Below the pieces are notes generated by a model. The model was not told the DNA's origin, ran no database searches, and saw only the letters and a program-made list of their open reading frames with translations. From contig JAFQOV010000003.1 in the NCBI GenBank assembly GCA_017402995.1, forward strand, positions 186,001-250,000: a stretch of DNA of 64,000 nt, read 5' to 3'. Of this stretch, positions 43,032 to 60,355 are shown piece by piece. Positions within the stretch are counted from its first letter, which is position 1. Each line of letters opens with the position of its first letter. The translations under genes and the position numbers were made by a program. Source of the stretch: Candidatus Gastranaerophilales bacterium (GTDB lineage Bacteria > Cyanobacteriota > Vampirovibrionia > Gastranaerophilales > Gastranaerophilaceae).

Positions 43032-43108
43032 TGGGGCGCCTGATGGGATTCGAACCCATGCATATCGGAACCACAATCCGAGGTCTTGACCACTTGACGA
43101 CAGGCGCC
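43032..43108 (-). tRNA. tRNA-His (anticodon GTG)
   Basis: The minus strand folds into a full cloverleaf: 8-bp acceptor GGCGCCTG / CAGGCGCC that includes the G-1 base typical of bacterial tRNA-His paired to C73, anticodon loop TTGTGGT in a TCGGA/TCCGA stem, and GGTTCGAATCC in the T arm. CCA is encoded at 43032-43034. Confidence 0.95.
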
Positions 43109-43191: not shown

Positions 43192-43293
43192 GAGCAAAAA
43201 TGGTACAAAAATTGAAAAACAGTGTTATAGTGAAAATAGATTTTCGGACAATTCAAATTTGTATCACCAGAATTATCACGCGAAAAATGATGG

Positions 43294-43535
43294 CTAAATT
43301 CGCTTGATTGGAGGGTACGGTTACGTGCTCGGCACCAGCTCTTCGCGGCTGCCGTCGCACTCACACACCTTATGCCCCAATCGGCGCTCATTAAGTCAAG
43401 TCTGACTAAATTCGCTTGATTGGAGGGTACGGTTACGTGCTCGGCACCAGCTCTTCGCGGCTGCCGTCGCACTCACACACCTTATGCCCCAATCGGCGCT
43501 CATTAAGTCAAGTCTGACTAAATTCGCTTGATTGG
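43294..43535. repeat. 112-bp GC-rich tandem repeat, two full copies and an 18-nt third start
   Basis: Copies at 43294-43405 and 43406-43517 appear identical; a third begins at 43518 and stops matching after CTAAATTCGCTTGATTGG (43535). GC is clearly above the surroundings. Each unit can fold: GATTGG pairs with CCAATC at its ends, and a nested stem GTGC-CGGC-AGC / GCT-GCCG-GCAC spans 43325-43360 in copy 1. The period is not a multiple of three, and no frame stays the same between copies, so it is not coding. It fills most of the gene-free stretch 43192-43604; the rest of that stretch shows nothing else clear except the AGGAGG site of the next gene. Confidence 0.93.
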
Positions 43536-43604: not shown

Positions 43605-43985
43605 ATGCGTCATTGCAATAGCGTATTTTGTGCTGAAGATATTTGGTTCTTAATTGATACACAAACAGCAACCAAAAGAAAACTCTACCTTGCGTCTTGT
43701 CCAATTTGCGCAAAAGAAATGGCATTATATAGCGAACAAAACCCAGAAACACTTGAAACATATGAAAAATATTACTACTCAGGCGGTGCAAGAAAAATCA
43801 AAGAAAAATTCAAAAAAGAAATATCATCAACATTACAAGGCTTCAAAACAAAATATAGAGCACCATACGGGTTTAAATATGGAAAAAACATTGAAATCAA
43901 AAAAGAAGGCAAATGTATCGGAATAAAACAATATGCCTGTGATTTCTGGGGAAACAAAGTTCTTGTAAAAACAATTTATGAATAG
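43605..43985 (+). CDS. First gene of the phage cassette, unknown, Cys-rich start
   Basis: 126 residues behind a strong AGGAGG site. Four cysteines near the start (Cys4, Cys9, and CPIC at 32-35) could bind zinc; the remainder is basic with many Lys and Tyr. I recognise no family. Position just before the terminase genes suggests a DNA-binding or packaging accessory role (inference). The stop overlaps the next gene by 8 nt. Confidence 0.7.
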   Translation: MRHCNSVFCAEDIWFLIDTQTATKRKLYLASCPICAKEMALYSEQNPETLETYEKYYYSGGARKIKEKFKKEISSTLQGFKTKYRAPYGFKYGKNIEIKKEGKCIGIKQYACDFWGNKVLVKTIYE

Positions 43986-44271
43986 AGAGGAAAGTTTAAT
44001 ATCATCTCAAAAGCAAAATTTAAAACAAAAGCAATACACTCTTGAAAATGCAATTCAAGAATTTGAAGAATTAAAAAACATTGCCCTTTCTTGTCTGGAT
44101 AAAAATGGAAACCCAAATATTTCTGCAGCAATGCGCGCTGTTGAAAACAAGGCAAAAATAGCAGGCTTATACCAAAAAGCGCCACCACAGGTAGCAAATG
44201 TTGTTCAAATGGGCGAAATTAAGGTTGATGGCGAACAGCTAAAATTAAAAATAGGAGAAGAAATCGATTAA
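43978..44271 (+). CDS. Terminase small subunit-like phage protein
   Basis: 97 residues. The segment NPNISAAMRAVENKAKIAGLYQ looks like the helical DNA-recognition part of small terminase or related packaging proteins, and the gene lies directly before the large subunit. The C-terminus (QMGEIKVDGEQLKLKIGEEID) may contact the large subunit. The assignment rests on position and size more than sequence. Confidence 0.55.
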   Translation: MNREESLISSQKQNLKQKQYTLENAIQEFEELKNIALSCLDKNGNPNISAAMRAVENKAKIAGLYQKAPPQVANVVQMGEIKVDGEQLKLKIGEEID

Positions 44272-44284
44272 CAAGGACTATACC

Positions 44285-45592
44285 TTGCCTGAAATATTAA
44301 AAATTCCACCTAAAATATACCCATTTATTTTTGAATTTAATAAATATGATTATTTTTTATTAGAGGGCGGAAGAGCTTCTGGCAAAACACAAAGCGTCGC
44401 AAGATTTTTATTATATGTATCACAAAATAGACAGGTCAGAATTTGTTGCGGGAGAGAAATTCAAAATTCTATCGAAGAATCTGTAAAGACAGTATTTTTG
44501 GATTTAATTGAAAAATATAATCTCGATTACATAATCAAAAAAGATTGCTTGATAAATAAAAAAACAAATTCAAAAATATTTTTCAAAGGCTTTAGAGAGC
44601 GCGGAAACGTTAACATCAAAGGGCTTGAAGGCGTAGATATTTTATGGATTGATGAAGCACAATCGATAACAAAACCGACGCTCGATATCATTATCCCGAC
44701 GATTAGAAAGAAAAACTCTGTAATTATTTTCACAATGAATAGATATACGCGATTTGACGCCGTATATGAGTTTTGTGCTAATCGAGAAGACTGTTTAAAC
44801 ATTAAAGCAAATTATTTTGACAACCCATTTGTTGATGAAAAAATCATCAAAGAAGCAAATTTTTGCAAAGAAAAAAACTTGCAAGATTACAACCATATCT
44901 GGCTAGGATATCCAATGAGTAATACAAATGAATTTCTTTTAACAACAGAGATGATTGATAATTCAATTAATTTAACTTTTGAAAAAGATAGTTCATATTT
45001 TAACAATTCCGTTATGTCAGTTGATTTATCTGCAAGTGGAGCAGATTTATGCGTTGCGAAATTATTTGTCCAACAAAATTCAACCACTTGGGAAGAAAAA
45101 GAAACAATAAGTTGGCAAGAAGCAGACACAGACATCACAAAAGGCAAAATAATTAGCCTATATTCAACTTGGCTTCCAAAAAAATTAATCATTGATGCAG
45201 ACGGGCTTGGATATCCGATATGGGTGAGCATTGAAAAGATAATTAATGGCGCAATAGGGTTTAGAGGAGCTAAAAAAGCAAATTCAAAATATTCTCTAAA
45301 CGCAAGAGCAGATGGATATTTGGCTTTAAGAGATTATCTAGAAAAAGGATATTTAAAATTAAAAGACAAAAACACAATTAGACAGCTGGAATTTATCAAA
45401 AAAATATATAAACCCAATGGATTAATTGCAATTCAAGACAAAAAAGAAATTAGAAAAGAACATGCACAAAGCCCTGATTACGCAGATTGCGCAATGATGG
45501 CGCTTTACGCAATAAATTATTGTCTATGCGAAAAAACAAATTCATATCAATATGAAAGCTATATAAATAGCGATTTTGAACCATTTGAGTAA
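44285..45592 (+). CDS. Phage terminase large subunit
   Basis: 435 residues from a TTG behind AAGGAC. The ATPase has Walker A GGRASGKT (28-35), Walker B ILWIDEAQ (119-126) and the coupling block TMNRYTRFDAV. The nuclease part starts near 240 (VMSVDLSASGADLC) and ends with SPDYADCAMMALYA, supplying the acidic metal ligands. It cuts concatemeric DNA and powers packaging through the connector. All motifs are intact. Confidence 0.93.
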   Translation: MPEILKIPPKIYPFIFEFNKYDYFLLEGGRASGKTQSVARFLLYVSQNRQVRICCGREIQNSIEESVKTVFLDLIEKYNLDYIIKKDCLINKKTNSKIFFKGFRERGNVNIKGLEGVDILWIDEAQSITKPTLDIIIPTIRKKNSVIIFTMNRYTRFDAVYEFCANREDCLNIKANYFDNPFVDEKIIKEANFCKEKNLQDYNHIWLGYPMSNTNEFLLTTEMIDNSINLTFEKDSSYFNNSVMSVDLSASGADLCVAKLFVQQNSTTWEEKETISWQEADTDITKGKIISLYSTWLPKKLIIDADGLGYPIWVSIEKIINGAIGFRGAKKANSKYSLNARADGYLALRDYLEKGYLKLKDKNTIRQLEFIKKIYKPNGLIAIQDKKEIRKEHAQSPDYADCAMMALYAINYCLCEKTNSYQYESYINSDFEPFE

Positions 45593-45606
45593 AGAAAGGA
45601 GAATTT

Positions 45607-45801
45607 ATGTGTTTTACAAAAACACCTTCATTTAGCACGCAAGAAGAAGAAAAAGTTGTGAGAAAAGAGGCGAACGCGAGTTTAACAAAAAACTCGCAAA
45701 ACAAAGAAAACGCGAGTTCATATGCAAACAACTTCAAAACAACACCAATAGGCTTGACAGATAATGCGCTAACACAGAAAAAAACACTATTAGGAGAATA
45801 A
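45607..45801 (+). CDS. Small phage protein, unknown
   Basis: 64 residues behind AAAGGAG, with an ATG immediately following. Composition is K/N/S/T/E-rich with an MCFTKTPSFST start, reminiscent of the MCTTLSTL start of the internal protein at 49923. Likely disordered. Tight spacing to the connector gene (1 nt) suggests a structural accessory. Confidence 0.6.
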   Translation: MCFTKTPSFSTQEEEKVVRKEANASLTKNSQNKENASSYANNFKTTPIGLTDNALTQKKTLLGE

Positions 45802-45802
45802 A

Positions 45803-47437
45803 ATGCAATTTTATACTGTTGAATATTTCAAAAAAAGAAAACAACAAATGGAAGAGGTTTTTAACACCATAAAACCAGACCTGCAAGAACTTGCAGATTA
45901 TTTTTCACCGCGAAGTGTACAATTTATTGCAAGAAACACAAGAAAACCAATTGTTAAAAACAAAAAAATCATAGATTCAACTCCATTAATTGCTCTTCGC
46001 AATTTTTCATCTGGAATGATGACAGGGGCAACAAGCCCGACTAACCGCTGGTTTAAAACGAGCCTTTCAAGCAATGACTTGTCAAATAACCATTACTTAA
46101 AAACTTGGTGCTCAAAACAAGAGGAGCTCACAAGAAAGATATTATACAGTTCAAATTTTTATCAATGCTTGCCAGAAACATACAAGCAACTTGGGGTTTT
46201 TGGGTTCAGTGCAATGAGTTTGCAACGTGATTTTGATAATGTTGTGAACTTCAAAGTTTTGCCAATCGGTTCATATTACTATTCTAAAAACCCGCAAAAC
46301 AAAGTTGACGCTTTTTGTCGAGTTTATATGGATAGTGCTAAAAATATTTTTGAAATGTATCCAAATACATGCCCAGATGAAATCAAAGAAGCAGCAAAAG
46401 AAAGCCCCTTGAAGCTTTTCGAATTAATTCATTTTGTCGAATTAAATAAATTTTATAAAGAAAAACATTTCAGCTCAAAATTTGCAAAATATGCTTCTGT
46501 TGTGATTGCAAGCGCACAAAACCAGTTTTTATCTCAAAAAGGTTTTAATAAATTCCCTTATGTTGTTTTTGAATCATCTTTCTCATCAGACGTAGATTAC
46601 CCTCAAGATTCCCCAGGTATTAATGCTCTAGCAGACGTCAAACAATTAATGACCATGGTGAAAGAATATGCAAAAGCTGTTAAAAAAATTGTTTGTCCGA
46701 CATATAAAGGTCCTGCTAGTTTAAAAAACAAAAAATTAGCAGATATCCCAGGAGCATATATCGAAGAAGATGAATCTGGCAGAGGGATTTCACCGGTTTA
46801 TGAGGTAAACCCAAAAGTTCTAGAATTAAAACAAGAAAAAGATGAACTTAAGCAAGCGATAAAAGAACATTTTTACAATGATTTATTTGCAATGATTTTA
46901 TCGACCGCTCAAAGAGGCAGAACAGCAACCGAAGTTAATGAATTAAAAGAAGAAAAAATGGTTTTATTGTCACCATTACTTGAACAAATACATTGCGGAT
47001 TAAAAGAGATTTTAAACTGGATTTTAGATGAAGAAATTAGAGTTGGAATCATTGAACCGTTAGAAGAAAAGTATTCAACTTGTAAATATCAAATAGAATT
47101 TACTTCAAGCCTTGCGCAAGCACAAAAAGTTTCAAATATCTCAAGTATGGAGCGCTTTACAACATTTGTTGCAAATATTGCAAACGCAATTGACCCAATT
47201 TTAAAAGCAAAACTAAACGGCGAAAAAATAATCGAAGACTATGCAAACTTTGCAAACATTGACCCAACGCAAATTGTCTCATCAGACGAATTAAAAGAAA
47301 TCAGAAAACAAACAGTACTATCTCAAAACCAACGCGAAGAGCTTGAAAAACTTAGCCAAGGAAGCCAAATAATTCAAAACATGGGTGGAGTTGACTCCTT
47401 TGGTCCAGATTTATTAGCACGTTTTGGTATTGTTTAA
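45803..47437 (+). CDS. Head-to-tail connecting (portal) protein, podovirus type
   Basis: 544 residues. The start TVEYFKKRKQQMEEVFNTIKPDLQELADYFSP, the Gly-rich NFSSGMMTGATSPTNRWFK, and the Gln-rich C-terminal third with the EVNELKEEKMVLLSPLLEQI helix match the bacteriophage head-to-tail connecting protein family of T7- and epsilon15-like phages. It forms the dodecameric vertex through which DNA is packaged and ejected. Confidence 0.92.
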   Translation: MQFYTVEYFKKRKQQMEEVFNTIKPDLQELADYFSPRSVQFIARNTRKPIVKNKKIIDSTPLIALRNFSSGMMTGATSPTNRWFKTSLSSNDLSNNHYLKTWCSKQEELTRKILYSSNFYQCLPETYKQLGVFGFSAMSLQRDFDNVVNFKVLPIGSYYYSKNPQNKVDAFCRVYMDSAKNIFEMYPNTCPDEIKEAAKESPLKLFELIHFVELNKFYKEKHFSSKFAKYASVVIASAQNQFLSQKGFNKFPYVVFESSFSSDVDYPQDSPGINALADVKQLMTMVKEYAKAVKKIVCPTYKGPASLKNKKLADIPGAYIEEDESGRGISPVYEVNPKVLELKQEKDELKQAIKEHFYNDLFAMILSTAQRGRTATEVNELKEEKMVLLSPLLEQIHCGLKEILNWILDEEIRVGIIEPLEEKYSTCKYQIEFTSSLAQAQKVSNISSMERFTTFVANIANAIDPILKAKLNGEKIIEDYANFANIDPTQIVSSDELKEIRKQTVLSQNQREELEKLSQGSQIIQNMGGVDSFGPDLLARFGIV

Positions 47438-47438
47438 T

Positions 47439-47864
47439 TTATTCAAAAAGTTTTGACTTTTTAGAATAAGTTATTTCGCAATATTTTGGATTTGCCAAAA
47501 ATGCTTGGAAAACTTCACCATTTGTGGTCATTTTTGCACCAAAAATTGGATTTTTATCAATTTGTTTTTTAAATACTCTGTTAAATTCTTCCATTGAAGA
47601 AGAAATTGCAGGCAAATCAGCCTGAGAAAAAGTGCAATTTAGTTGTTGATAACTTTTTCCTTGAAAAATGCGCTCCTTGTAAAGACATTCACCTTTTTTA
47701 TTTTTTTCAAGAGTAACTAAAACATTAAAAACCTCGTTTTGATAAGGAATTGAACCTTCGCGAGAAAAGTTCTCGCAAGTTTTTAATGCACTGGAAAATT
47801 CATCAATAGCAAAAGCGCTAGTTGTAAAAAATATTGCAAATAACAAAAATAAAATCTTTTTCAT
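47439..47864 (-). CDS. Antisense secreted protein inside the phage cassette (moron candidate)
   Basis: 141 residues, on the opposite strand to every other gene of the cassette. A signal peptide is clear (MKKILFLLFAIFFTTSAFA, cut before IDEF). The mature part of about 122 residues has four Cys (near 30, 59, 76 and 133) that could form two disulfides, and a conserved-looking GKSYQQLNCTFSQADLPAI. It has its own ribosome site (AGGAG before the ATG) and sits exactly between connector and scaffold genes. Its stop is 2 nt from the connector stop. Function unknown; a lysogenic conversion factor is the best guess. Confidence 0.8.
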   Translation of the reverse strand: MKKILFLLFAIFFTTSAFAIDEFSSALKTCENFSREGSIPYQNEVFNVLVTLEKNKKGECLYKERIFQGKSYQQLNCTFSQADLPAISSSMEEFNRVFKKQIDKNPIFGAKMTTNGEVFQAFLANPKYCEITYSKKSKLFE

Positions 47865-47907
47865 AATAACTCCTCAATCAAAATTATAACACATAGAAAG
47901 GATAAAT

Positions 47908-48462
47908 ATGCAACAAGAAACAAAAAACACTATTTCACTTGGAGAAAACCAAGAAGAAAAGCTATTTGGGAAACCAGAAAAATATGACTATTCAAAATAT
48001 TCAGAGATTGATGGCTTTGGATTAGACGAGGAATTGGTTGAAAAATTTGCACAAATTGCACAAAAATTAGACCTCTCACAATATTCCGCACAAATGCTGT
48101 TAGAGCTTGCTGTTGAAATGTCGCAAAAACAAGCACAAAAGAGAGAAAATGACGAAAAAAACACGCAAGAAGAAACTCTTTTAGCTTATCAAAAAATGTT
48201 TAAAGAAGATTCGGAATTACCTGATCAAAATTCAAGCCAAATCAAAGAATACATGCGAATTGCAGATAGCGCATATAACGAATTTGCAAGTCCAACATTA
48301 AAAGAAATTTTTAAAGAAAAAGGGCTAATTTATCACCCTGAGTTAATCAAAATGTTTTATAAATTGGGCGAAGCAATGGAGTGTGATGATTTGAATTTTG
48401 GCGGAAAACCCGCGCAAAACGAATTGACACCTGCGCAAATACTTTACGGGCCACGAGAATAA
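47908..48462 (+). CDS. Scaffold-like phage head protein
   Basis: 184 residues, acidic and helical with Gln/Glu-rich stretches (KLDLSQYSAQMLLELAVEMSQKQAQK), no membrane segment. Position between connector and major capsid and the helical, charged character fit a scaffolding protein; sequence alone would not show it. AGAAAGGAT precedes the ATG. Confidence 0.65.
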   Translation: MQQETKNTISLGENQEEKLFGKPEKYDYSKYSEIDGFGLDEELVEKFAQIAQKLDLSQYSAQMLLELAVEMSQKQAQKRENDEKNTQEETLLAYQKMFKEDSELPDQNSSQIKEYMRIADSAYNEFASPTLKEIFKEKGLIYHPELIKMFYKLGEAMECDDLNFGGKPAQNELTPAQILYGPRE

Positions 48463-48476
48463 ATTAAGGAGGAAAT

Positions 48477-49472
48477 ATGGCACTGGTTGGAAACACTTAT
48501 TTAACTTTAAAAGACAAATTTGCACAAAAAGAAAATGGCAAAATTGCAACAACGATTGTTGACCTTTTAGCACAATCAAACGCATTATTAGAAGACGCCG
48601 TTGTAAGAGAATGTAACGAAGGTTCTACGCATAAAACAACTGTCAGAAATGGCTTGCCCGAAGTAGAATTCAGAAAATTTTACCAAGGCGTGAACGCTTC
48701 AAAAGGCGAATATACACAAATTACAGACACAACAGGAATGCTTGAAGTTTATTCACAAGTCGATAAAGCCCTAGCAGACTTAGAAGGCGACACTCAACAA
48801 TTCAGAATGAACGAAGCGCAAGCGTTTTTAGAATCCATGAACAATACAGTTCAAGACAACATTTTTTATGGCTCAAAAGCTACAAATCCTGCAGGTTTTG
48901 ATGGCTTGGCAATTAGATACAACAAACTATCAGCAGATAAAAATTCAATCGGTTCAAGAGTAATTGACGCTGGCGGAAAAGGCGCAAACAACACATCAAT
49001 CTGGTTTATTACTTGGGGCGATTTACATACACATCTACTATATCCAAAAGGCTCTCAAATGGGCTTAGTGCATACCGATAAAGGCGCTCAAACAGCAACA
49101 GATTCAAACGGAAACATGTATGAAGTTTATAGAGACCACTTCAAATGGGATGTCGGAATGACAGTCAGAGACTTCCGCTCAACTTGTCGTATTGCCAACA
49201 TTGATACAGAAAAACTAGGCACAGAAGAAGAGCCAGATTTAATCAAATTAATGGTTGAAGCATATCACAAAGTAAATCGCTACGCGAAAACCGGCAAAAC
49301 CGTAATCTATTGTAATGACACAATTCAAACACATTTACATTTCCAAGCAATGAACAAAACAAATGTAAAATTATCAATCCAAGAATACGAAGGCAGACCA
49401 ATCGTATCTTTCCTTGGTATTCCAATTAAATGTGCTGATCAAATCAGAAACAACGAAAAAGCTGTTTCATAA
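48477..49472 (+). CDS. Phage major capsid protein
   Basis: 331 residues behind AAGGAGG. The layout with ALVGNTYLTLKDKFAQ, DIFYGS-like loop NIFYGSKATNPAGFDGLAIRY, WFITWGDLHTHLLYPKGSQMGL and the C-terminal GRPIVSFLGIPIKCADQI corresponds to the capsid family of BPP-1/epsilon15-type podoviruses, which has the HK97 fold. Directly followed by a cement-protein gene, as in BPP-1. Confidence 0.88.
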   Translation: MALVGNTYLTLKDKFAQKENGKIATTIVDLLAQSNALLEDAVVRECNEGSTHKTTVRNGLPEVEFRKFYQGVNASKGEYTQITDTTGMLEVYSQVDKALADLEGDTQQFRMNEAQAFLESMNNTVQDNIFYGSKATNPAGFDGLAIRYNKLSADKNSIGSRVIDAGGKGANNTSIWFITWGDLHTHLLYPKGSQMGLVHTDKGAQTATDSNGNMYEVYRDHFKWDVGMTVRDFRSTCRIANIDTEKLGTEEEPDLIKLMVEAYHKVNRYAKTGKTVIYCNDTIQTHLHFQAMNKTNVKLSIQEYEGRPIVSFLGIPIKCADQIRNNEKAVS

Positions 49473-49489
49473 AAGAAAGGAAAAATTAA

Positions 49490-49882
49490 ATGTTACTAGA
49501 TACTCAAAGCTTATTTTCAGAAAACCAAGCAATTACAACAGGAACAATTTTAAGCGAAAATGTTGTTAAATTTGGAGCAGGAGATGTTTCTTTTGTTCCG
49601 ATTTTAATTCAAGCAACACAAGATTTCTCAGATTTAACTAATCTAAAAGTAAAAGTTGAAACATCAGCAGATGAAACATTTGAAGACGTCAAAGTTTTAT
49701 CGGAATCAACCTTAAATAAAGATTCCCTAAAAGCTGGTGCAACATATCCAATTGCTTATCTTCCAAAAGGAAACAAAGGGTATATTCGTCTTTCATATAC
49801 TGTTGAAGGCACAGCTGAAACAACAGGAAAAGTTACATCAGGCACAGTAGCAGCAAACGAGCTATCTTGGCATGAAGTTTAA
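49490..49882 (+). CDS. Bbp16-like capsid cement protein
   Basis: 130 residues behind AAAGGA. Beta-rich with LLDTQSLFSENQAITTGTILSENVVKFGAGD at the start and PKGNKGYIRLSYTVEGTAE near the end, a pattern like the Bordetella phage Bbp16 cement/decoration protein that stabilises the capsid surface. Position directly after the capsid gene agrees. Confidence 0.72.
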   Translation: MLLDTQSLFSENQAITTGTILSENVVKFGAGDVSFVPILIQATQDFSDLTNLKVKVETSADETFEDVKVLSESTLNKDSLKAGATYPIAYLPKGNKGYIRLSYTVEGTAETTGKVTSGTVAANELSWHEV

Positions 49883-49922
49883 TTTATGTGGGCATTTTGC
49901 CCACTTTTTTTAAGGAGAAAAA

Positions 49923-50423
49923 ATGTGTACAACTCTATCAACGCTTAATACAATAGCATCTGTTGCAAATTCAGGTGCAGAAATATATAACAAAGTACAA
50001 AATTATAATAACGACAGAAAAATCTCAAAATTTCGCGAACAAACAGCGCTCGACAACGCAAAACTAATGCAAGAAGAGGCTAAAAATCAAAAACAAATTG
50101 GAATTGAAGAAGCGAGATTAAAAAAAATCGAAGGAATAAAAGAAGCAAATAGGCAAAAAGCAATTAATTCCGCAGGAAATATTGACGCAAATTCGCAAAC
50201 AAGCGCTTTTAACCTAGAAGACATTTTAAATTTATCGCAATCGCAAGCGCAAGAAATCCAAGAAAAATATAATGAACAAGCACAAGAATATCAAAACAGG
50301 GCAAATTCATACGTCGAAAATGCAAACCTAGAAAAAATGAACAGAAAAAATAACCTGTTCAAGTTCGGCATGAAAGGGCTTGGTTCAAGCGACGAAATTG
50401 CAAGTCACTGGTACGGAATTTGA
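49923..50423 (+). CDS. Probable internal virion (core) protein
   Basis: 166 residues. MCTTLSTLNTIASVANSGAEI then a long Gln/Lys/Glu-rich coiled coil (KLMQEEAKNQKQIGIEEARLKK) and a glycine-containing end. Podovirus genes at this place encode T7 gp14-like internal proteins that leave the head to help DNA cross the envelope; that is inferred from place and composition. Confidence 0.6.
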   Translation: MCTTLSTLNTIASVANSGAEIYNKVQNYNNDRKISKFREQTALDNAKLMQEEAKNQKQIGIEEARLKKIEGIKEANRQKAINSAGNIDANSQTSAFNLEDILNLSQSQAQEIQEKYNEQAQEYQNRANSYVENANLEKMNRKNNLFKFGMKGLGSSDEIASHWYGI

Positions 50424-50432
50424 GGAGAAAAA

Positions 50433-51020
50433 ATGTCAAAAGTACAAATTTTTAATATTGTTTTAAATATTCTTGGAGTCTCAAATCCAATCGAAAACTC
50501 TTTAAGCAATGACAATCGAGCAATTTTGTTAAACAATTATTATTCGCTTGCAAGAGATTATGTTTTAAAAGATTTTGATTGGAATTTTGCATCAGCGCAC
50601 AGAAAACTATCTATAATTAACAATCAAAATGAATTAAATAAATTTAAATATTGCTACGATTACCCCAATGACTGTGTTTGCGCAAGAGATATTTACAACA
50701 GCACAAATTATAACCTAGAAAAGTTCGAAATAGGAACAGATGAAAAAGGAAACAAAATCATCTATTCAGATTGCGAAAGTGCGATTTTAAGATATACAAA
50801 ACGAATAGAACATGAAATTTTATTTACATGCGAATTTTCAATGGCGCTTTCATATTACCTTGCGTCATTAACTTCAAGCGTCATCACAGGAAGCTTGCAA
50901 AAGGGTGAGATTGCGTATGAAAAATATATGCAAATTTTAAAACATGCAAAAGTAATCAATGCCCAAGAAGGCGCGAGCGCATTATACGAAGAAACAACAT
51001 ATTTAGATACAAGAGGATAA
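50433..51020 (+). CDS. Tail tubular protein A-like adaptor
   Basis: 195 residues behind GGAG. VQIFNIVLNILGVSNPIEN, ARDYVLKDFDWNFASAHRKL and FSMALSYYLASLTSSVITGS match the gp11-like tail tube A family, which forms the ring between connector and nozzle. The next gene follows after 1 nt. Confidence 0.85.
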   Translation: MSKVQIFNIVLNILGVSNPIENSLSNDNRAILLNNYYSLARDYVLKDFDWNFASAHRKLSIINNQNELNKFKYCYDYPNDCVCARDIYNSTNYNLEKFEIGTDEKGNKIIYSDCESAILRYTKRIEHEILFTCEFSMALSYYLASLTSSVITGSLQKGEIAYEKYMQILKHAKVINAQEGASALYEETTYLDTRG

Positions 51021-51021
51021 A

Positions 51022-53082
51022 ATGAGCATAAGAATTAGTCAAAACTCTTTTTCAAAAGGCATATTATCTCCATCATTACAAGGAAGAATAGATTTAGAAC
51101 AGTACAATCTTGGATTAAAAAATCTTGAAAATGGAATAATTTTGCAAGAAGGCTGTGTCATGAATCGCTCTGGGCTTGAATTTATCGCAGAAGCAAAATT
51201 CAGCAATAAAAATACAAGATTAATTCCTTTTGTGTTTAATTCATCTCAAAGCTATATCATTGAACTTGGCGAAAAATATATGCGTTTTTTAAAAGATGAC
51301 GGATATATTTTAGATGAAAACAAAAATATTTATGAAATTGAAACAAAATATTTAAGCGAAGATATTTTTGAAATCGACTACGTTCAACAGGCTGACGTGA
51401 TGACGCTTGTACATAAAAATTATAAGCCGATTAATTTGATAAGAAAAAATCACAACGATTGGCAAATTGAAGAAATTAATTTTTGCGCAAAAATTGAACC
51501 GCCAAAAAACCCAAAAGCTACATATACAGGCTCAACAAACTCAAACACGACAACGTATGAATATATTGTATGTTCTGTTGATAAAACAACAAAAGAAGAA
51601 AGCGCGCGAAGCGAAATTGCAAGTGTAGTTGGGCATTTAGAAGCATATTGGACAACATCAGAATACATTACAATATCTTGGGAAGAAGTTGAAAACGCGC
51701 TTGAATATAATGTTTATAGGAGTGTAAATGGAATATTCGGCTATGTTGGCACAAGCACAAAAAATAGCTTTAAGGATAATAACATTGAACCGGATTTAAC
51801 TTCTTGCGCACCAATTTACAACAATCCTTTTCAAGAAGAAAACCCAAGTTGTGTATGTTATTTTCAACAAAGAAAGGTCTATGCCTCGTCAGAAAAAAAT
51901 CCACAAACCCTTTGGGCAAGCCAAAGTACAAGTTCGGAAAATTTCAACATTTCAAGACCATTAAACGCAACTGACGCAATTACAATTTCAATATATGACA
52001 ATATAGCAAACAATATTCAACATCTAATTCCGTTTGATGATTTAATTGTAATTACATCAAATTCTGAGTGGTGTGTTAATGGAAAAGACGGAGTTTTTAG
52101 CGCAACTCCGACACCATGTGCAAATATGCAATCTTATTACGGTGCAAATAAAGTTAAACCCGTGATTTCAGGGACTATGGTCTTGTTTGTCCAATCAGGC
52201 GGAAATATTGTCAGAGATTTAGGTTATAATTATCTTTCAGATTCATATGATGGCGAAGAATTGACCCTTTTTGCAAGTCATTTATTTGAAGGCAAAAAAA
52301 TTGTTGATATGGCATATTGCAAAGAGCCATATAGAATTTTATGGTGCGTTATGAACGACGGAACATTAAACGGTTTGACATATAATCCAAAACAAAAAAT
52401 TTCCGCATGGCACACCCATAATACAAAAGGCAATTTTAAAAGCATTGCAACAATCAGGGAAAACAATGAAGATATAGCATATTTTGTTGTCGAAAGATTA
52501 ATTAATGGCGAAAAGAAAAAATATATTGAAAAATTTAAAACAAGAAACATCAAAACACTTGAAGACGGCTTCTTTTTGGACTGTGCGCTTTGTGCAAAGT
52601 TTGATGAGAAAAAAGAAAAAATATCTGGATTAAATCATCTTAAAAACGAGACAGTTAACGCACTATTAGATTTTGGTGTTGTTGAAGGTTTAATTGTTGA
52701 TGAAAATGGCGAATTAAAACTTCCATATCCTGCACAAAATGTTTTAATCGGATTGCCGTATACATTCAAATTGGAAACTTTAAACCTTGAAGGCGAAGGC
52801 TCACTTGGCATTAAAAAGGTTTTAAATAAAATTGAAGTAAAAATTCTTAATTCAAGGGAAGATTTCTTTATTGAAAACGACAATAATACACATAGTCAAA
52901 ATTCAAGAAGTCGAGAAAGCATTAACTTTCCAAGTAAATTATTTGAAAAAGATGTTGAATTTTCACCTTTAAGCAATACCAAAATCGAAACCTCGGTTAA
53001 AATTTTACAAAAATATCCGCTCCCATTAAAAATTTTGTCAATTTGCTCAACAATTTCACTAGAAGAAGTTGAAACAAGATGA
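51022..53082 (+). CDS. Tail tubular protein B / tail nozzle with fibronectin-like insert
   Basis: 686 residues. SQNSFSKGILSPSLQGRIDLEQYNLGLKNLENGII and LEQG-like LQEGCVMNRSGLEFI are the family start, ARLIPFVF-like NTRLIPFVFNSSQSYIIELG follows. A segment near 165-260 (TYEYIVCSVDKTTKEES, ISWEEVENALEYNVYRS) looks like a fibronectin type III domain inserted in the nozzle. The beta-propeller body follows. It overlaps the next gene by 4 nt. Confidence 0.88.
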   Translation: MSIRISQNSFSKGILSPSLQGRIDLEQYNLGLKNLENGIILQEGCVMNRSGLEFIAEAKFSNKNTRLIPFVFNSSQSYIIELGEKYMRFLKDDGYILDENKNIYEIETKYLSEDIFEIDYVQQADVMTLVHKNYKPINLIRKNHNDWQIEEINFCAKIEPPKNPKATYTGSTNSNTTTYEYIVCSVDKTTKEESARSEIASVVGHLEAYWTTSEYITISWEEVENALEYNVYRSVNGIFGYVGTSTKNSFKDNNIEPDLTSCAPIYNNPFQEENPSCVCYFQQRKVYASSEKNPQTLWASQSTSSENFNISRPLNATDAITISIYDNIANNIQHLIPFDDLIVITSNSEWCVNGKDGVFSATPTPCANMQSYYGANKVKPVISGTMVLFVQSGGNIVRDLGYNYLSDSYDGEELTLFASHLFEGKKIVDMAYCKEPYRILWCVMNDGTLNGLTYNPKQKISAWHTHNTKGNFKSIATIRENNEDIAYFVVERLINGEKKKYIEKFKTRNIKTLEDGFFLDCALCAKFDEKKEKISGLNHLKNETVNALLDFGVVEGLIVDENGELKLPYPAQNVLIGLPYTFKLETLNLEGEGSLGIKKVLNKIEVKILNSREDFFIENDNNTHSQNSRSRESINFPSKLFEKDVEFSPLSNTKIETSVKILQKYPLPLKILSICSTISLEEVETR

Positions 53083-53552
53083 AGGAAATAAAAGCAACAA
53101 GAAAAAATATTAAAAAATTCATAAAAAACCTAAGAAAAGAAGATTATGAAGAATTAAAATATTTTTTAAAGAAAAAAATTACAAAAAAATTTCAAAAAGA
53201 ACTTGAAAATTTATCTGACTTTTATTTTCTTTCTGATAAAAATCACCCAATCGCACTTGGCGGAGTTCAACAAGATAAAAAACATAAATACATAGGCAAG
53301 GCTTGGCTTTTATGTGCAGATATGAGCAAACACAGCAAAATGAAATTGTATAAGTTTATCAAAGAAAAAATTTTAGACTATCAAAAACAATATGATATTA
53401 TTTACAATTTTATTTTTAAAAGCAACTTTAAAGCGCAAAAATGGCTTGAAAAATTTGGGTTTATTTTTTTAAATACACAAAACCCCGATTTTAAATTATT
53501 TTACTATTCGAACGGAGAACAAAAAATTGATATACGAAACATTGCCAACTAA
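53079..53552 (+). CDS. GNAT-like phage protein (T7 gp13 / DUF2833 type)
   Basis: 157 residues. A short acetyltransferase-like fold: ATRKNIKKFIKNLRKEDYEEL, PIALGGVQQDKKHKYIGKAWLL and AQKWLEKFGFIFL. T7 gp13 and relatives of this shape lie next to the tail genes and are needed for virion assembly rather than for acetylation. Overlaps both neighbours, by 4 and 26 nt. Confidence 0.72.
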   Translation: MKEIKATRKNIKKFIKNLRKEDYEELKYFLKKKITKKFQKELENLSDFYFLSDKNHPIALGGVQQDKKHKYIGKAWLLCADMSKHSKMKLYKFIKEKILDYQKQYDIIYNFIFKSNFKAQKWLEKFGFIFLNTQNPDFKLFYYSNGEQKIDIRNIAN

Positions 53553-54483
53553 CAGCTATTGCGGAAATTCAAGCTGCAAAACATTTGATTTTGATTTTTA
53601 TATTGAAAATGAAAATCAATTAAAAGTCTATTTGATAGATGAAAACGAAATCAAAAAAGAATTAAAATATAAAGAAGATTACTCAATTAATGAATTTAAA
53701 AATAAATCTGGAAGCTATATTATCTTCCCAATTGAAAATTCAAGTTATGAAACATTGAACGAAAACCAAAGAATTTCACTTGAATTAAACCTAGAAATTA
53801 GCCAAGAGGTTCAGTATAATAATAGTTCATTATTAAATTTAGAAACTCTTGAATATTCACTTGATTATTTAACAAGGTTGATACAAATTTTAAATAGAAA
53901 AATTTCGCTTTGTTTAAAAGTAGAAGAGGGGCTGAAGGCAACGCCCGAAGAACTCTTAAATTCAATAAAAGAAAGCAAAAACACTTGTATTGAAAATAAA
54001 ACTTTGGCACAAAAATATACAGACGAAGCAAAAAAAAGCTCGCAAGAAGCACAAGAAAAATTAACACAAATAGAAAAATATACTGAAGAAATTACACCCG
54101 AAAAATATACGTTAAACGATTTAACAAATTTATCAACAGAAGGTAGAACAACAGGGGCGAGCCTTGCTATGCCATCAAGTAACTTTATTGTTCTTGAATG
54201 GGGTGCAAGTGGTTCAGCTTATATCGCTCCTGCAAACGGGTATATTAATGCACAATATGCGATAACAGGAACAACAGGGAATTTTTCATTACAGCTAAAC
54301 ATAAACGAAAGAATGTTCGACAAAAAATGGGCATATTTGCCAAGCACGACTTCATCATCTATATTATGCACAACAATCCCTGTTAAAAAAGGGGATACTG
54401 TAAGTTTAATTTATCAATATCCACAAAATACAACAATAACAACGACATTAATAAGATTTTTCTATGCAGAAGGTGAGGTTTAA
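53527..54483 (+). CDS. Tail fibre with T7-type N-terminus and small C-terminal receptor-binding domain
   Basis: 318 residues from a TTG behind GGAG, inside the end of the previous gene. Residues 1-115 (YETLPTNSYCGNSSCKTFDFDFYI, LDYLTRLIQILNRKIS) match the T7 fibre N-terminal domain that docks on the tail. A coiled-coil linker (145-190) follows, then a beta-sandwich-like C-terminus (GASGSAYIAPANGYINAQYA, KGDTVSLIYQYP) similar to C1q/TNF-like tips. No polysaccharide lyase domain or C-type lectin variable region is seen. Confidence 0.82.
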   Translation: MIYETLPTNSYCGNSSCKTFDFDFYIENENQLKVYLIDENEIKKELKYKEDYSINEFKNKSGSYIIFPIENSSYETLNENQRISLELNLEISQEVQYNNSSLLNLETLEYSLDYLTRLIQILNRKISLCLKVEEGLKATPEELLNSIKESKNTCIENKTLAQKYTDEAKKSSQEAQEKLTQIEKYTEEITPEKYTLNDLTNLSTEGRTTGASLAMPSSNFIVLEWGASGSAYIAPANGYINAQYAITGTTGNFSLQLNINERMFDKKWAYLPSTTSSSILCTTIPVKKGDTVSLIYQYPQNTTITTTLIRFFYAEGEV

Positions 54484-54485
54484 AT

Positions 54486-54935
54486 ATGTTTTTAGGATAT
54501 CAGGAAGGAAAAATTAAGTTTTATACAGAACAAGAACTTGATGCAGTTATATACAATCTTGAAAAATCAATTGAAACGCAAGACGAATATGTTTATGACG
54601 CAGAAGGGGAAGAATATGTCTTGAATGATGGAGCATATAAAGAGCGTCAAAAACAGAAAGAACGCGAAAGAATTGGCAATTTATATTTAACAAGGGCTGA
54701 TGTTGAAAGGGGAATTTATCAAGCCAAAGGTATGGATTTTGATGATATTTTAGCACATGTATCACAACTTCAACCACAAGGACTTGATTTAAAAGCTTTA
54801 AAAATTGAATTAAAAGCAAATCACTTCTATCGCGGAAATCCATACGTAAGCGCAATTGGCGAATTATTAGGATTCAGCGAAAAACAACTAGACGATTTTT
54901 TTGAAACAAATGATTGGCATACATTAGCAACTTAA
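54486..54935 (+). CDS. Tail fibre-associated protein, unknown
   Basis: 149 residues, acidic. FLGYQEGKIKFYTEQELDAV then a helical part (AYKERQKQKERERIGNLYLTRADVERGI). The ERERIGNLYLTRADVERG block resembles phage fibre-assembly or tail-associated proteins. Its gene ends the structural run: a terminator follows 6 nt after the stop. Confidence 0.6.
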   Translation: MFLGYQEGKIKFYTEQELDAVIYNLEKSIETQDEYVYDAEGEEYVLNDGAYKERQKQKERERIGNLYLTRADVERGIYQAKGMDFDDILAHVSQLQPQGLDLKALKIELKANHFYRGNPYVSAIGELLGFSEKQLDDFFETNDWHTLAT

Positions 54936-54941
54936 ACCTCT

Positions 54942-54970
54942 GGCAGAGATTTATTCTCTGCCGTTTTTTT
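54942..54970 (+). terminator. Terminator between phage tail and lysis genes
   Basis: GGCAGAGA / TCTCTGCC with a short loop and T7, directly followed by the AGGAG site of the DUF1353 gene. It should lower expression of the lysis module relative to the structural genes. Confidence 0.9.
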
Positions 54971-54980
54971 AGGAGAAAAA

Positions 54981-55445
54981 ATGATTAAATGGTATCAAGA
55001 TAAAGAAATTAAAATATATTTTAGTATAATTCCAAACGTAAAAGCGCGTTTTTTAACGCCATATTGCAATAAAAACGAGATTAAAGAATATAAAGAAAAG
55101 CCCTTTATAAACCTTGAAAAATTAGACGTTGAACTATTTGATTGTAAGAAAAATAAAAAATATTTTTTTGAAATCAAAAAAGATTACACTTGGGATGGCG
55201 CAAGCATTCCAAGAATATTTTGGCGCTTAATTGGTTCAAAAACAGAACCTGAGTTTTTAATTCCGTCGTTAATCCATGATGTATTATGCGAAAATCATAG
55301 TTATGTCGATAACGACAGATATTTTTCAACAAAAGTTTTTGAAAAACTTTTAAAAATTTCAAAAGTAAACCCGTTTAAAAGGTGGCTAATGTTTCACAGT
55401 GTAGATAATTATCAGAAATTTAAAAGGTGGAAAAATGAACTATGA
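54981..55445 (+). CDS. DUF1353 phage protein
   Basis: 154 residues. KDYTWDGASIPRIFWRLIG and PSLIHDVLCEN with the HD pair are the DUF1353 signature, common in phage lysis regions; function unknown. It overlaps the small membrane protein by 11 nt. Confidence 0.82.
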   Translation: MIKWYQDKEIKIYFSIIPNVKARFLTPYCNKNEIKEYKEKPFINLEKLDVELFDCKKNKKYFFEIKKDYTWDGASIPRIFWRLIGSKTEPEFLIPSLIHDVLCENHSYVDNDRYFSTKVFEKLLKISKVNPFKRWLMFHSVDNYQKFKRWKNEL

Positions 55446-55650
55446 ACTTATTGGAATTTTAATCACAATTATTTTTCAAGGGTTATATATAGCCTTTAAA
55501 ATTGGACATTTTGAAGAAAAATTGAATAATTTAGAAAAAAAGCAAGATAAACACAACTCAATCATAGAAAGAGTTTTTTACCTAGAAGAAAGCACAAAAA
55601 CAGCACACAAAAGAATTGACGAGATTAAAAAATATGAAATTGAATTTTAA
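55435..55650 (+). CDS. Small membrane protein of the lysis module (holin or spanin-like)
   Basis: 71 residues. One N-terminal membrane helix (5-25, LIGILITIIFQGLYIAFKI) and a charged coiled coil (26-65) in the manner of XhlA-like or spanin-like proteins. Overlaps both neighbours. A role in releasing or helping the endolysin is inferred. Confidence 0.68.
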   Translation: MNYELIGILITIIFQGLYIAFKIGHFEEKLNNLEKKQDKHNSIIERVFYLEESTKTAHKRIDEIKKYEIEF

Positions 55651-56041
55651 AATGTCAGAATTAATATATTCAAAAACTGCACTTAAAAACCAGATTTATA
55701 ATATGCCAAGATTAGATGAATTAGATAATTTGCTAGAGCTAATCATAAACGTGTTGCAACCAATTAGAGACCAATTCAAATCAGAAGTTATAATTAACAG
55801 CGGATATAGAAACCAAAAATTAAATACACTTGTAAAAGGTGCAAAAAATTCGCAACATCTAAAAGGGCAAGCCGCTGATTTTACAGTCAAAAACCACACA
55901 ATTGAAGAAGTAATTGATTGGATTAAAGAAAATCTTGTTTTTGACCAATTGATAAACGAATACGACAAATGGATTCATGTTTCATATAATTCAAGAGGAA
56001 TAAACAGAAAAGAAGTTTTATATTTAAAAACAAAAAAATAA
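55634..56041 (+). CDS. M15-family peptidoglycan endopeptidase (endolysin)
   Basis: 135 residues from the ATG at 55634, which overlaps the preceding gene; the ATG at 55652 is an alternative and a longer frame begins at 55616. The M15 zinc motifs are INSGYRN, SQHLKGQAADF (His and Asp ligands) and WIHVSYN (third His). The enzyme would cut peptidoglycan cross-links to release virions. No signal peptide, so it needs a holin or the small membrane protein. Confidence 0.88.
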   Translation: MKLNFKMSELIYSKTALKNQIYNMPRLDELDNLLELIINVLQPIRDQFKSEVIINSGYRNQKLNTLVKGAKNSQHLKGQAADFTVKNHTIEEVIDWIKENLVFDQLINEYDKWIHVSYNSRGINRKEVLYLKTKK

Positions 56042-56065
56042 ATGTTGCACAAAGGGTACAACATT
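56041..56065 (+). other. Hairpin at the right end of the phage cassette
   Basis: AATGTTGCAC / GTACAACATT pair with one mismatch around AAAGG. There is no T run, so termination is uncertain. It loosely resembles the inverted repeat at 43166-43191 (GTTGTA...TACAAC). Confidence 0.45.
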
Positions 56066-56099: not shown

Positions 56100-56942
56100 T
56101 TAGAGTTTTATACAGTTAATAAATCTTGTATCGAGCTTGTTGTTTACGCCCATATCGTACAAAATCGCCTTTGCGCCAAGGTCGCTGATTGGCTTTTTAT
56201 ATGGTCTTTTTTCTCTTAGCGCGCAATAAACATCAGCAATTGTTAAGGCTTGGTTTTCGTGCGTTTTAACCAATTTGCCATCATAGTTATGATGTTCATA
56301 TGCGAGTTGTGCGACTTTTAGATTTAAGCCTGTTGTTTTTAAAACTTCATAGCTTAATCTGTTATGTAATTCAATAATTTTTCTTTCACTTGGTGTTAAT
56401 AGTCCGCGTTTGTTTAAAATTTCCGCTGGAATAAATGCTTTACCAATATCATGCAAAAGTGCAGCTTGTGTTAAATATACGAAATTTTGAGAATCTTTTT
56501 TATGACCCATATTGACATAAATATTTTGAGCGACTTTTGCGCAAGGCGCCAAATGGGCAGTTTTAAGTGAATTTAAATTTTCTAAATTATAAGTTAATGG
56601 CAATTTGTTTTCTGCAAGAATTTGTCTTATTGCTGGATTAATTCTAATTGCATTATTTAAAACTTCACTTGTGCAATATTTTTCAATGAATTTAATTGGC
56701 TCTTCAAGTGCTAGTCTATCATCTGAAGTTACAATAGGTGTAGCAATGCCATAAGTTTGAGGCGTTAAAGCTTGTGCTTGAACAACTGCGGCTGGCTGAT
56801 ATGTATCTATTGGCAAATAAGTACGTTTTAGCGCATTACTTGAAAAACCAGCGCCAAAATATGGTTTTTTTATGCCAATTTGCTTATTAGTTTTTGTATT
56901 TGAAACAACGCCTTTAATGCGTTCCAAAAAACCCATATTCAC
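56100..56942 (-). CDS. HD-domain phosphohydrolase-like protein
   Basis: 280 residues. The HD core is LLHDIGKAFIPAEIL (His-Asp), followed by ELHNRLSYEVL and AYEHHNYDGKLV. In HD-GYP phosphodiesterases the last block would be HHExxDGSGYP; here the GYP is missing, so cyclic di-GMP hydrolysis is unsure. The first 90 residues are unlike HD proteins and include KPYFGAGF, an FG-type patch. No membrane helix. Monocistronic; a partial match to the 34-bp element lies upstream. Confidence 0.75.
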   Translation of the reverse strand: MNMGFLERIKGVVSNTKTNKQIGIKKPYFGAGFSSNALKRTYLPIDTYQPAAVVQAQALTPQTYGIATPIVTSDDRLALEEPIKFIEKYCTSEVLNNAIRINPAIRQILAENKLPLTYNLENLNSLKTAHLAPCAKVAQNIYVNMGHKKDSQNFVYLTQAALLHDIGKAFIPAEILNKRGLLTPSERKIIELHNRLSYEVLKTTGLNLKVAQLAYEHHNYDGKLVKTHENQALTIADVYCALREKRPYKKPISDLGAKAILYDMGVNNKLDTRFINCIKL

Positions 56943-57014
56943 CCACTATTATACTAACCTTATGTTTATTTAAAGTATTTTTTTATGGGCAAATTGCGCA
57001 ATATAAACTTTTTG

Positions 57015-58403
57015 TTAAGATTTGTTACTTTTGTTTTCAGATGAATAATCCGCAATTCCGGTAAATTCATCTCTACCAGTTATTTTTTTGGTAATCCAAA
57101 AGGTTGTTTTTGGAACAATAAACGACAAGCCGATAATACTTAACAATAAGCCGCTTGCAAGATAGGTTGCATTTGAAGCGTTAATTTTTTTCAAAGTTTT
57201 ATTCAATGCGTTTTTGTTAATTTTTCCATCAACCAATAAGCTTTCGCCAGATTTTGCAACAGTTTCTTTAATATAGGTTAAAAATTTAGCAACAGAAGAA
57301 TCAACATCTTTTAAATCTTGATTTTTAACAAAAGCGTTAATTTTGCCAAATTTACCATGGGTTGCTTCTTTATAGACTTCTTTTGCAACATCAGAATTAA
57401 ACATTTCTTTTATAGAGGTTTTGTTTTGTTCAAGCTGAGAAAAAGCACCTTTTAAAAGGCTTTCATCTTGACCTGCAATAAATTCAGCAATTTTTGGGTC
57501 AATATTTGGAATTTTACTAGCTTTTCTTAAAAGATTTTGAACATTGTTTGCGCAGAAATTATAGAAATAAATACTTCCACCATCAATTAAAAGGTTTTCT
57601 AGTCCTTCATATTTATTTCTTGATGTCGCAACACGCCCTGCAATCATAGGGAAGTCTGTTGCAACAAGCCTAAAGGTATTATTATTGTTAATGTTATAAA
57701 CTACATTTGATAACAAGTTACCAAATGTGATATTATTGTTTGCTTTTGGGGCGATTGCACCTCTTGCAAATTCAGAAAAAGATGGGAACTTTGGCTCCAT
57801 TTCGATTGGAACATTTTGTTCTTTTAATTTTTTTCTTGTAATTGCTTGGTTAATTTTGGGCAAAATAACACCCATCATTGCGCAATTTAAAACCAAAGCT
57901 GCAATTGATGTGACTTTTTTTGCAGCGCCAACTTTTTTGACAAGGCTTTCAACATTAGCGCCTTTAAACTTGTCACCATATTTTTTCACAAGTTCAGAAA
58001 AATCAACGCCTTTAAACCTATCGCCAAAAACCAAAGGTGCTTTTTCAAGCGCTTCTTTTTGGTCTTTAAAACCAGCAGATAAAAATTCAACAGAATCTTT
58101 AATGCAATTATTTCCCTCGTCAGATTTGCAAAAATCAATCATGGTTGGGATATTTAAAACTTTTTCGCAAAAAACATTTCCAAGTTTATTGAAAGCTGGA
58201 ATGCCAAACAGCCAAACAGCAGCCGACATTGACTCTTTGCGGAATTTTTCCGCCCCTTCAATAACTCCTCCGCGTTTATAGCCAGCATAAGAGCGCCCAA
58301 GGGTGCAAGGAATTTCCTCTATCAGCGTTCCTGTTTGATAGTTTGGGTTATTAATATGTGAAACAACTCGAGCAAGAGTTGAATATGAATTTGAAATTGA
58401 CAA
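57015..58403 (-). CDS. Unknown membrane protein of lineage-specific type
   Basis: 462 residues from a TTG at 58403 with AAGG 7 nt before. Two membrane helices are clear, near 170-188 (VTSIAALVLNCAMMGVILP) and 402-420 (TYLASGLLLSIIGLSFIVP); the middle is helical with Asn-rich NNNNTF. The C-terminus is basic. No family recognised; this kind of large unknown is common near SFG-type genes. The upstream region carries copy 3 of the 34-bp element, starting 26 nt before the start codon. Confidence 0.72.
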   Translation of the reverse strand: MSISNSYSTLARVVSHINNPNYQTGTLIEEIPCTLGRSYAGYKRGGVIEGAEKFRKESMSAAVWLFGIPAFNKLGNVFCEKVLNIPTMIDFCKSDEGNNCIKDSVEFLSAGFKDQKEALEKAPLVFGDRFKGVDFSELVKKYGDKFKGANVESLVKKVGAAKKVTSIAALVLNCAMMGVILPKINQAITRKKLKEQNVPIEMEPKFPSFSEFARGAIAPKANNNITFGNLLSNVVYNINNNNTFRLVATDFPMIAGRVATSRNKYEGLENLLIDGGSIYFYNFCANNVQNLLRKASKIPNIDPKIAEFIAGQDESLLKGAFSQLEQNKTSIKEMFNSDVAKEVYKEATHGKFGKINAFVKNQDLKDVDSSVAKFLTYIKETVAKSGESLLVDGKINKNALNKTLKKINASNATYLASGLLLSIIGLSFIVPKTTFWITKKITGRDEFTGIADYSSENKSNKS

Positions 58404-58428
58404 AATAATACCTTGGAATTGATTTTTG

Positions 58429-58462
58429 CATGTTTATAAAACTTGTAAAGGATATATTTTGC
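58429..58462 (-). promoter_or_regulatory. 34-bp upstream element, copy 3 (before the gene at 57015)
   Basis: Minus strand: GCAAAATATATCCTTT, ACAAG, TTTTATAAACATG. Same length and spacing as copies at 7586 and 9421, with ACAAG in place of CACGTG. The element begins within the stop codon of the acyltransferase gene at 58462. Confidence 0.5.
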
Positions 58463-59770: not shown

Positions 59771-59812
59771 AAAATCTCCTTATTTTAAAATTATACTAAA
59801 TAATTTAAAATA

Positions 59813-59821
59813 TGGTATAAT
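59813..59821 (+). promoter_or_regulatory. Extended -10 promoter of the Skp-like gene
   Basis: TGGTATAAT (TG, one base, TATAAT at 59816-59821). Transcription would start near 59828, leaving room for the GAGGGAG ribosome site before the ATG at 59846. Confidence 0.6.
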
Positions 59822-59845
59822 TTTTAAAAAAAGAGGGAGAACAAA

Positions 59846-60298: not shown

Positions 60299-60308
60299 TC
60301 TATAAAAA

Positions 60309-60350
60309 GTACTTTACTTATAATTTTTTTAAGTTATTATAATAAAGTAC
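60309..60350 (+). other. Long imperfect palindrome between the Skp-like gene and tRNA-Ser
   Basis: GTACTTTA / TAAAGTAC with inner TTATAAT / ATTATAA forms a stem of about 15 pairs around a T-rich loop. It overlaps the TATAAT at 60338-60343 that is the likely -10 box of the tRNA gene. It may act as a terminator of the upstream gene or change tRNA expression. Confidence 0.6.
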
Positions 60351-60355
60351 CGTTT

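Follow-up and report, generated by a model that had tools for sequence, protein, structure and literature searches.

A genus-wide short-tailed phage cassette in the Gastranaerophilaceae resembles a gene transfer agent

Introduction

Gene transfer agents (GTAs) are defined as particles derived from caudoviricetes that package mostly random host DNA in heads too small for the whole GTA genome and deliver it to other cells, their own genome being fully endogenised and mostly vertically inherited (PMC9662315). Here we describe a late gene cassette of the epsilon15/BPP-1 podovirus type in a Candidatus Gastranaerophilales bacterium with a genome of 1.7 Mb. The window analysed is the 64,000-nucleotide stretch from 186001 to 250000 on the forward strand of contig JAFQOV010000003.1 (GCA_017402995.1). 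Gastranaerophilales are an order of Candidatus Melainabacteria, non-photosynthetic relatives of cyanobacteria, and nothing relevant was found in the literature on prophages or GTAs of this order. By sequence, the cassette is fixed, under constraint and free of genes for self-propagation, and has lost the DNA-binding domain of its small terminase subunit (TerS) as well as the ejection proteins. We consider it likely that the cassette encodes a domesticated short-tailed particle working like a GTA.

The siphovirus-like RcGTA of Rhodobacter capsulatus (Rhodogtaviriformidae) has a TerS that lacks the same N-terminal region and binds DNA weakly and non-specifically, which has been proposed as the defining feature of the GTA type (PMC6854486). 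The present cassette resembles RcGTA in its fixed late gene cluster, its co-diversification with the host and its TerS without an N-terminal DNA-binding domain (PMC6854486, PMC9662315), but differs in being podoviral, of the epsilon15 type and with a GP7 capsid.

FpGTA of Faecalibacterium, published in January 2026, was described as the first podovirus-like GTA-like element. Its TerS has no obvious DNA-binding domain, and its particles hold about 9 kb of DNA, with Faecalibacterium DNA packaged evenly (PMC12946183). The two systems share a podovirus-like late operon, this form of TerS, genus-wide presence in the genomes examined, the absence of replication genes, their own holin and endolysin, and a gut anaerobe as host. 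FpGTA differs in belonging to the phylum Bacillota and in being split, in one strain, into two operons about 125 kb apart, as opposed to one contiguous cassette here. Particle evidence exists for FpGTA, whereas the Gastranaerophilaceae cassette is known from its sequence. A preliminary description of this locus had held that a podovirus-type GTA would be new; since FpGTA is already described as such an element, this is not the first podoviral case and the general idea is not new. The novelty lies elsewhere: the element belongs to another host phylum, its capsid has been assigned by test to the epsilon15-type lineage, its genes form one contiguous cassette, and long-form sister prophages allow the lost parts to be identified.

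PBSX of Bacillus subtilis, also a domesticated phage-like particle, is listed as GTA-like; it behaves as a tailocin, and the DNA that it packages is not injected (PMC12946183). Among phages, BPP-1 of Bordetella and epsilon15 of Salmonella share with the cassette the gene order and the families of the large terminase subunit (TerL), portal, protease/scaffold, GP7 capsid, Bbp16, gp11, gp12, gp13 and gp14 type, and its major capsid protein (MCP) is 46% identical to that of epsilon15. However, epsilon15 is a full temperate phage with an integrase, repressor, replication genes, full-length TerS and gp15-gp17, all of which are missing or truncated in the cassette.

Results

The cassette occupies positions 43605-56041 of the window as an intact, contiguous set of late genes on the plus strand. 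Matches to PHROG and Pfam families for terminase, portal, GP7 capsid, cement and tail identified its products as particle proteins derived from caudoviricetes, in agreement with the sister prophages described below. At 12.4 kb, it would fit an unmodified epsilon15-size head (epsilon15 genome, 39.7 kb). The preliminary description had reported intact late genes in phage order, and coordinates, order and intactness were borne out. Because all 28 genomes of the window genus keep the same order without truncation, except at contig ends, the cassette genes can be regarded as real, and the frame-breaking decay named as a refutation of the GTA reading was absent. Also as described, PHROG and Pfam searches of the cassette and flanking genes found no integrase, repressor or replication family, the module that marks a temperate prophage. 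Three integrase-domain open reading frames in the window genome lie on other contigs, C1 and C17. A tailocin, contractile or flexible, would have tail genes without capsid and terminase; here capsid, portal and terminase are present and constrained. Nor were the integrase and own replication genes of a capsid-forming satellite of the cf-PICI type found. The genes and internal hairpins of the cassette are as follows.

43605-43985, plus strand: orfA, 126 amino acids, conserved, no assigned function (126-129 amino acids in 22 genus genomes; precedes TerS in prophages too)
43978-44271, plus strand: TerS, 97 amino acids, without N-terminal DNA-binding domain (alignment with prophage TerS)
44285-45592, plus strand: TerL (PF04466)
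45607-45801, plus strand: small conserved protein, 64 amino acids (phrog_831)
45803-47437, plus strand: portal, the head-to-tail connector (PF12236)
47439-47864, minus strand: 141-amino-acid protein with signal-peptide-like N-terminus and four invariant cysteines, antisense within the cassette
47908-48462, plus strand: scaffold/protease-like protein (phrog_458)
48477-49472, plus strand: MCP, GP7 family (PF20911, E 5e-125)
49490-49882, plus strand: Bbp16-type cementing protein (PF21190)
49888-49904, plus strand: terminator-like hairpin dividing head from tail genes
49923-50423, plus strand: gp14-type internal virion protein (weak, phrog_418, E 0.025; matches prophage gp14-type proteins)
50433-51020, plus strand: tail protein, gp11/tail tubular A type (phrog_394)
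51022-53082, plus strand: tail protein, gp12 type (phrog_376, E 1e-187)
53079-53552, plus strand: gp13-type internal virion protein (phrog_308)
53527-54483, plus strand: tail fibre, N-terminus conserved, rest variable
54486-54935, plus strand: 149-amino-acid protein, fibre-associated by position, no assigned function
54941-54963, plus strand: terminator-like hairpin preceding the lysis genes
54981-55445, plus strand: DUF1353 protein (phrog_1158)
55435-55650, plus strand: 71-amino-acid protein with hydrophobic N-terminus, holin candidate by position
55616-56041, plus strand: M15 peptidase endolysin (phrog_894, PF08291)

The distribution of the cassette was determined in 383 genomes of the family, among them 28 of the window genus and 41 of a second genus (g70). 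Exactly one copy of the capsid gene was present in 28/28 genomes of the window genus, and TerL was detected in 27 of them. Across the family, 82 genomes carried the capsid gene: these 28, 41/41 of g70, and the rest scattered over nine genera. Several of the scattered matches scored almost alike in different genera (G033, G176 and G224, E about 5e-138), a pattern that mobile phages would be expected to produce. Four g70 genomes (G243, G403, G332 and G397) gave two or three capsid matches, some being contig-edge fragments while others may be extra prophages.

The chromosomal place was likewise constant within the genus. A tRNA-His gene lies directly upstream of orfA in the 20 genus genomes having enough sequence, and in most genus genomes a conserved host block ending in tRNA-Ser lies downstream. 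In two genomes, G001 (L078) and G004 (L073), the HD-D462-acyltransferase-OmpH block is found on the tRNA-His side, the cassette and tRNA being flipped relative to it. Genomes G002, G013, G020 and G023 cluster with these two in the tree. The flanks and non-coding elements outside the genes are as follows.

43032-43107, minus strand: tRNA-His, adjoining the cassette (immediate neighbour of orfA in 20 genus genomes, flipped cassettes included)
43241-43266, plus strand: conserved non-coding box TTTTCGGACAATTCAAATTTGTATCA, candidate promoter/operator (core upstream of orfA in 21/22 genus genomes)
43291-43535, no strand: 2.2 copies of a G+C-rich direct repeat of 112 bp, an insertion between box and orfA (cassette leader)
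56041-56065, no strand: hairpin closing the cassette, where the endolysin and HD genes converge
56100-60442, no strand: host block HD, D462, two acyltransferases, OmpH-like, tRNA-Ser (conserved right flank in most species)

The g70 cassette has conserved flanks of its own, unlike those of the window genus. No convincing tRNA-His fragment or duplication, as an att remnant would be, was found on the far side of the cassette. With chromosomal contigs of up to 415 kb, a constant place in the genus and no integration genes, the element is fully endogenised. A search of IMG/VR found no free phage of the window-genus cassette; two contigs near the genus look like the same cassette, and contigs at 51% identity are PfDIW6-like. 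In one IMG/VR contig of the cassette (L119, IMGVR_UViG_3300011008_002753), TerL was unrecognised and the gp12-type tail gene short, reflecting assembly error or decay. In G009 (L104), G010 (L096) and G185 (L253), TerL is separated from the late genes that follow by insertions of about 0.7 to 9.5 kb, with the cassette genes intact.

The cassette genes are under purifying selection. Median ratios of nonsynonymous to synonymous substitution (dN/dS), calculated for close pairs by the Nei-Gojobori method and approximate because many pairs are near saturation, were 0.023 for MCP, 0.027 for TerL and 0.035 for portal, compared with 0.020 for rpoB and 0.031 for gyrA in the host. TerL and capsid are thus at housekeeping level, and dS was near 1 for cassette and host genes alike. 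The same genes were likewise under purifying selection in g70. Cassette and host distances were correlated (r 0.62), a value reached in 0/2000 permutations. Trees were built with FastTree. For the host, rpoB and gyrA by themselves gave poor resolution, and including uvrA and alaS did not resolve the deep nodes. The cassette tree and the four-marker host tree had 6/25 splits in common, equal to the number common to the two halves of the host markers, and shallow species groups were congruent. Collectively, presence in 28/28 genomes, similar dS, correlated distances and congruent shallow clades support mostly vertical descent and co-diversification with the host, with exchange within the genus possible.

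The TerS of the window genus is short. All 22 sequences (93-106 amino acids) lacked the N-terminal domain, their alignment with prophage TerS being confined to its C-terminal part, and the same held for 4/4 sequences from g70 (98-100 amino acids) and that of G039 (96 amino acids). Prophage TerS proteins are 160-170 amino acids long and 5/5 retain the N-terminal region in the alignment; this region corresponds to PF03592 (Terminase_2) in the two tested against Pfam. Since orfA lies 5' of TerS in both short and long forms, the domain was not simply split off. One short cassette from another genus, in G029, retains the TerS domain and was for that reason not counted as the same state.

The second loss concerns the ejection module. 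Annotated epsilon15, UFJF_PfDIW6 and Nsp-JY18, together with six long-form prophages from sister genera, served as references for missing parts. The cassette families correspond to those of the three phages through gp13/gp14, after which the large ejection proteins are missing; none of gp15-gp17 was found in the window. A giant gp16-type ejection protein had no match anywhere in 25 of the 28 window-genus genomes, and so was not relocated in these; of the other three, G006 has a substantial fragment and two gave weak matches. In 24 of the 25 testable genus genomes, a protein of 300-314 amino acids between the portal and the antisense gene represents a shrunken gp15. Its profile matched the gp15 proteins found in g70 and in the prophages (for G033, E 1e-25), and above the inclusion threshold the list consisted of gp15-type proteins plus two contigs of the same cassette. 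A PDB sequence search with this family of about 307 amino acids found no match and a fold search no significant one; T7 gp15 was among the non-significant hits, as was an ejection protein from a Pseudomonas phage. The gp15 remnant is deleted from the cassette of the window genome, and no copy was found elsewhere in that genome. Thus, the complete virion of the preliminary description was overstated because the ejection module, gp15 and the giant gp16, is lost, and TerS is truncated.

Six long-form cassettes (G033, G097, G182, G321, G199 and G305) were read. These prophages are the nearest relatives of the cassette, with the same late order, TerL 50-60% and MCP 56-73% identical. Unlike the cassette, they have a full-length TerS (where read), a gp15 of 702-740 amino acids, a giant ejection protein of about 2400-3060 amino acids and early genes, and are patchy across genera. 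An early module was present wherever the upstream region was read, and Pfam confirmed integrases of the tyrosine type in G033 and G182, while G199 had a serine recombinase. When TerL, portal, capsid and the gp12-type tail protein were combined in a tree, g70, G039 and G029 formed one clade (support 1.0), and the window genus clustered with all long-form prophages except G305 (0.999). As the clades are separate and the chromosomal places differ, the simplest reading is that there were probably two reductions to a fixed late cassette, one in the window genus and one in the lineage including g70. A single reduction in a common ancestor, followed by regain in the prophages, would be a less economical though conceivable account.

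Further features of the locus were examined for conservation. The box at 43241-43266 (26 bp) is conserved despite strong divergence around it: of 22 genus genomes covering this stretch, 21 have it upstream of orfA, either whole or as a 24-bp core in which one position is free. It occurs once in the window, with no second copy there, and was absent from all fetched prophage and g70 loci; it is a candidate operator. Copies related to the 112-bp repeat were seen near the cassette in a few relatives only (G005, G011 and G017). A promoter scan found sites no more numerous than in shuffles, and the two tRNAs were the sole matches in an Rfam search. The antisense gene at 47439-47864 is present in every window-genus cassette spanning that stretch (dN/dS about 0.11) and absent from the three other-genus cassettes tested. 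Its product is probably exported and gave a confident structure model (pLDDT 86); a PDB sequence search found no match to the family and a fold search no significant one. Between species, the first 150 residues of the fibre are 53-65% identical and the remainder 14-22%.

Discussion

The GTA reading offered in the preliminary description withstood comparison of position, selection, decay and patchiness across the genus, while the completeness that it assumed was wrong. If the cassette works like a GTA, the operon would be switched on in a subset of cells, possibly via the box at 43241-43266. TerL would fill heads without recognition of a pac site, so that these would hold mostly chromosomal DNA; with a TerS lacking a specific DNA-binding domain, self-selection of cassette DNA is unlikely. 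The M15 endolysin and the holin would then free the particles by lysis, and the variable fibres would bind related cells. In the least certain step, a particle without gp15 and gp16 may deliver DNA to the periplasm only, from which ComEC of the recipient, encoded in 28/28 window-genus genomes, would import it.

Several observations weigh against this reading. The cassette lacks the ejection proteins on which podoviruses normally depend, a state just as compatible with a particle that does not inject. ComEC is common and lends weak support to the import step. Host and cassette trees agree at shallow nodes only, the deep ones being poorly resolved or in conflict, and random packaging, lysis, delivery and transfer are all predictions from gene content. 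In addition, the particle of the window genome itself could be impaired, because it has lost the gp15 remnant kept by 24 relatives.

The main rival is a domesticated killer of the PBSX kind, whose particles are filled with random host DNA but, without injecting it, kill the related cells to which their fibres bind. The same genomic signature would be expected of it, namely a fixed place, purifying selection and no early genes, and so would the loss of ejection proteins and fibres with conserved N-termini and hypervariable tips, as befits a weapon of competition; the same alternative was raised for FpGTA (PMC12946183). However, TerS, TerL and portal are kept under strong constraint, at housekeeping level for capsid and TerL, which would be unneeded if the DNA were irrelevant. 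No obvious immunity gene is present, and the gp15 core kept in 24/25 testable genomes points to a delivery function. We regard such a killer as unlikely, though as the rival to be taken most seriously.

Two further explanations are less probable. A highly prevalent prophage or remnant, integrating at tRNA-His in every species with its early genes lost or elsewhere, would agree with the true prophages that share these late genes in sister genera, the integrase-domain genes elsewhere in the genome and the adjacency to a tRNA typical of prophages. Presence in 28/28 and 41/41 genomes, in single copy in nearly all, without lesions and with host-like dS, speaks against it, as does the lack of a convincing att-type duplication of tRNA-His on the far side. 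Remnants also decay, whereas the cassette has not in 28 species, and this explanation is strongly disfavoured. Still less probable, to a degree that makes it hardly credible, is a cf-PICI-like satellite that packages its own small genome and borrows helper-phage functions. Such a satellite would explain why capsid and terminase genes occur here with no full early module, but neither the cassette nor the genes beside it include an integrase, a replication gene or a repressor. The cassette also carries its own tail and lysis genes, is universal and mostly vertical in the genus, and has a TerS ill suited to self-selection. The satellite and early-genes-elsewhere readings, both entertained in the preliminary description, thus fit poorly with the mostly vertical presence in 28/28 genomes.

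Extending the GTA-like reading to the family, we tentatively propose, at less than even confidence, that epsilon15/BPP-1-type podoviruses were turned at least two times independently into genus-wide GTAs in the Gastranaerophilaceae. The same steps would have been taken each time, with TerS deprived of its DNA-binding domain, the giant ejection protein and early module discarded, and gp15 shortened. Since the particle would no longer build a channel across the envelope, the competence machinery of the recipient would complete delivery.

GTA-like particles with known genes have been firmly described in few lineages: the Alphaproteobacteria, Brachyspira and, since 2026, Faecalibacterium. A cassette fixed in two Melainabacteria genera, alongside full-length prophage relatives, offers a before-and-after view of the passage from virus to transfer device, and the comparison shows which domains and genes go and whether the same losses recur. 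It also yields a sequence rule for finding more such elements: a TerS without a DNA-binding domain, a lost ejection module and genus-wide fixation. For these largely uncultured gut bacteria, the cassette would represent a predicted route of gene exchange.

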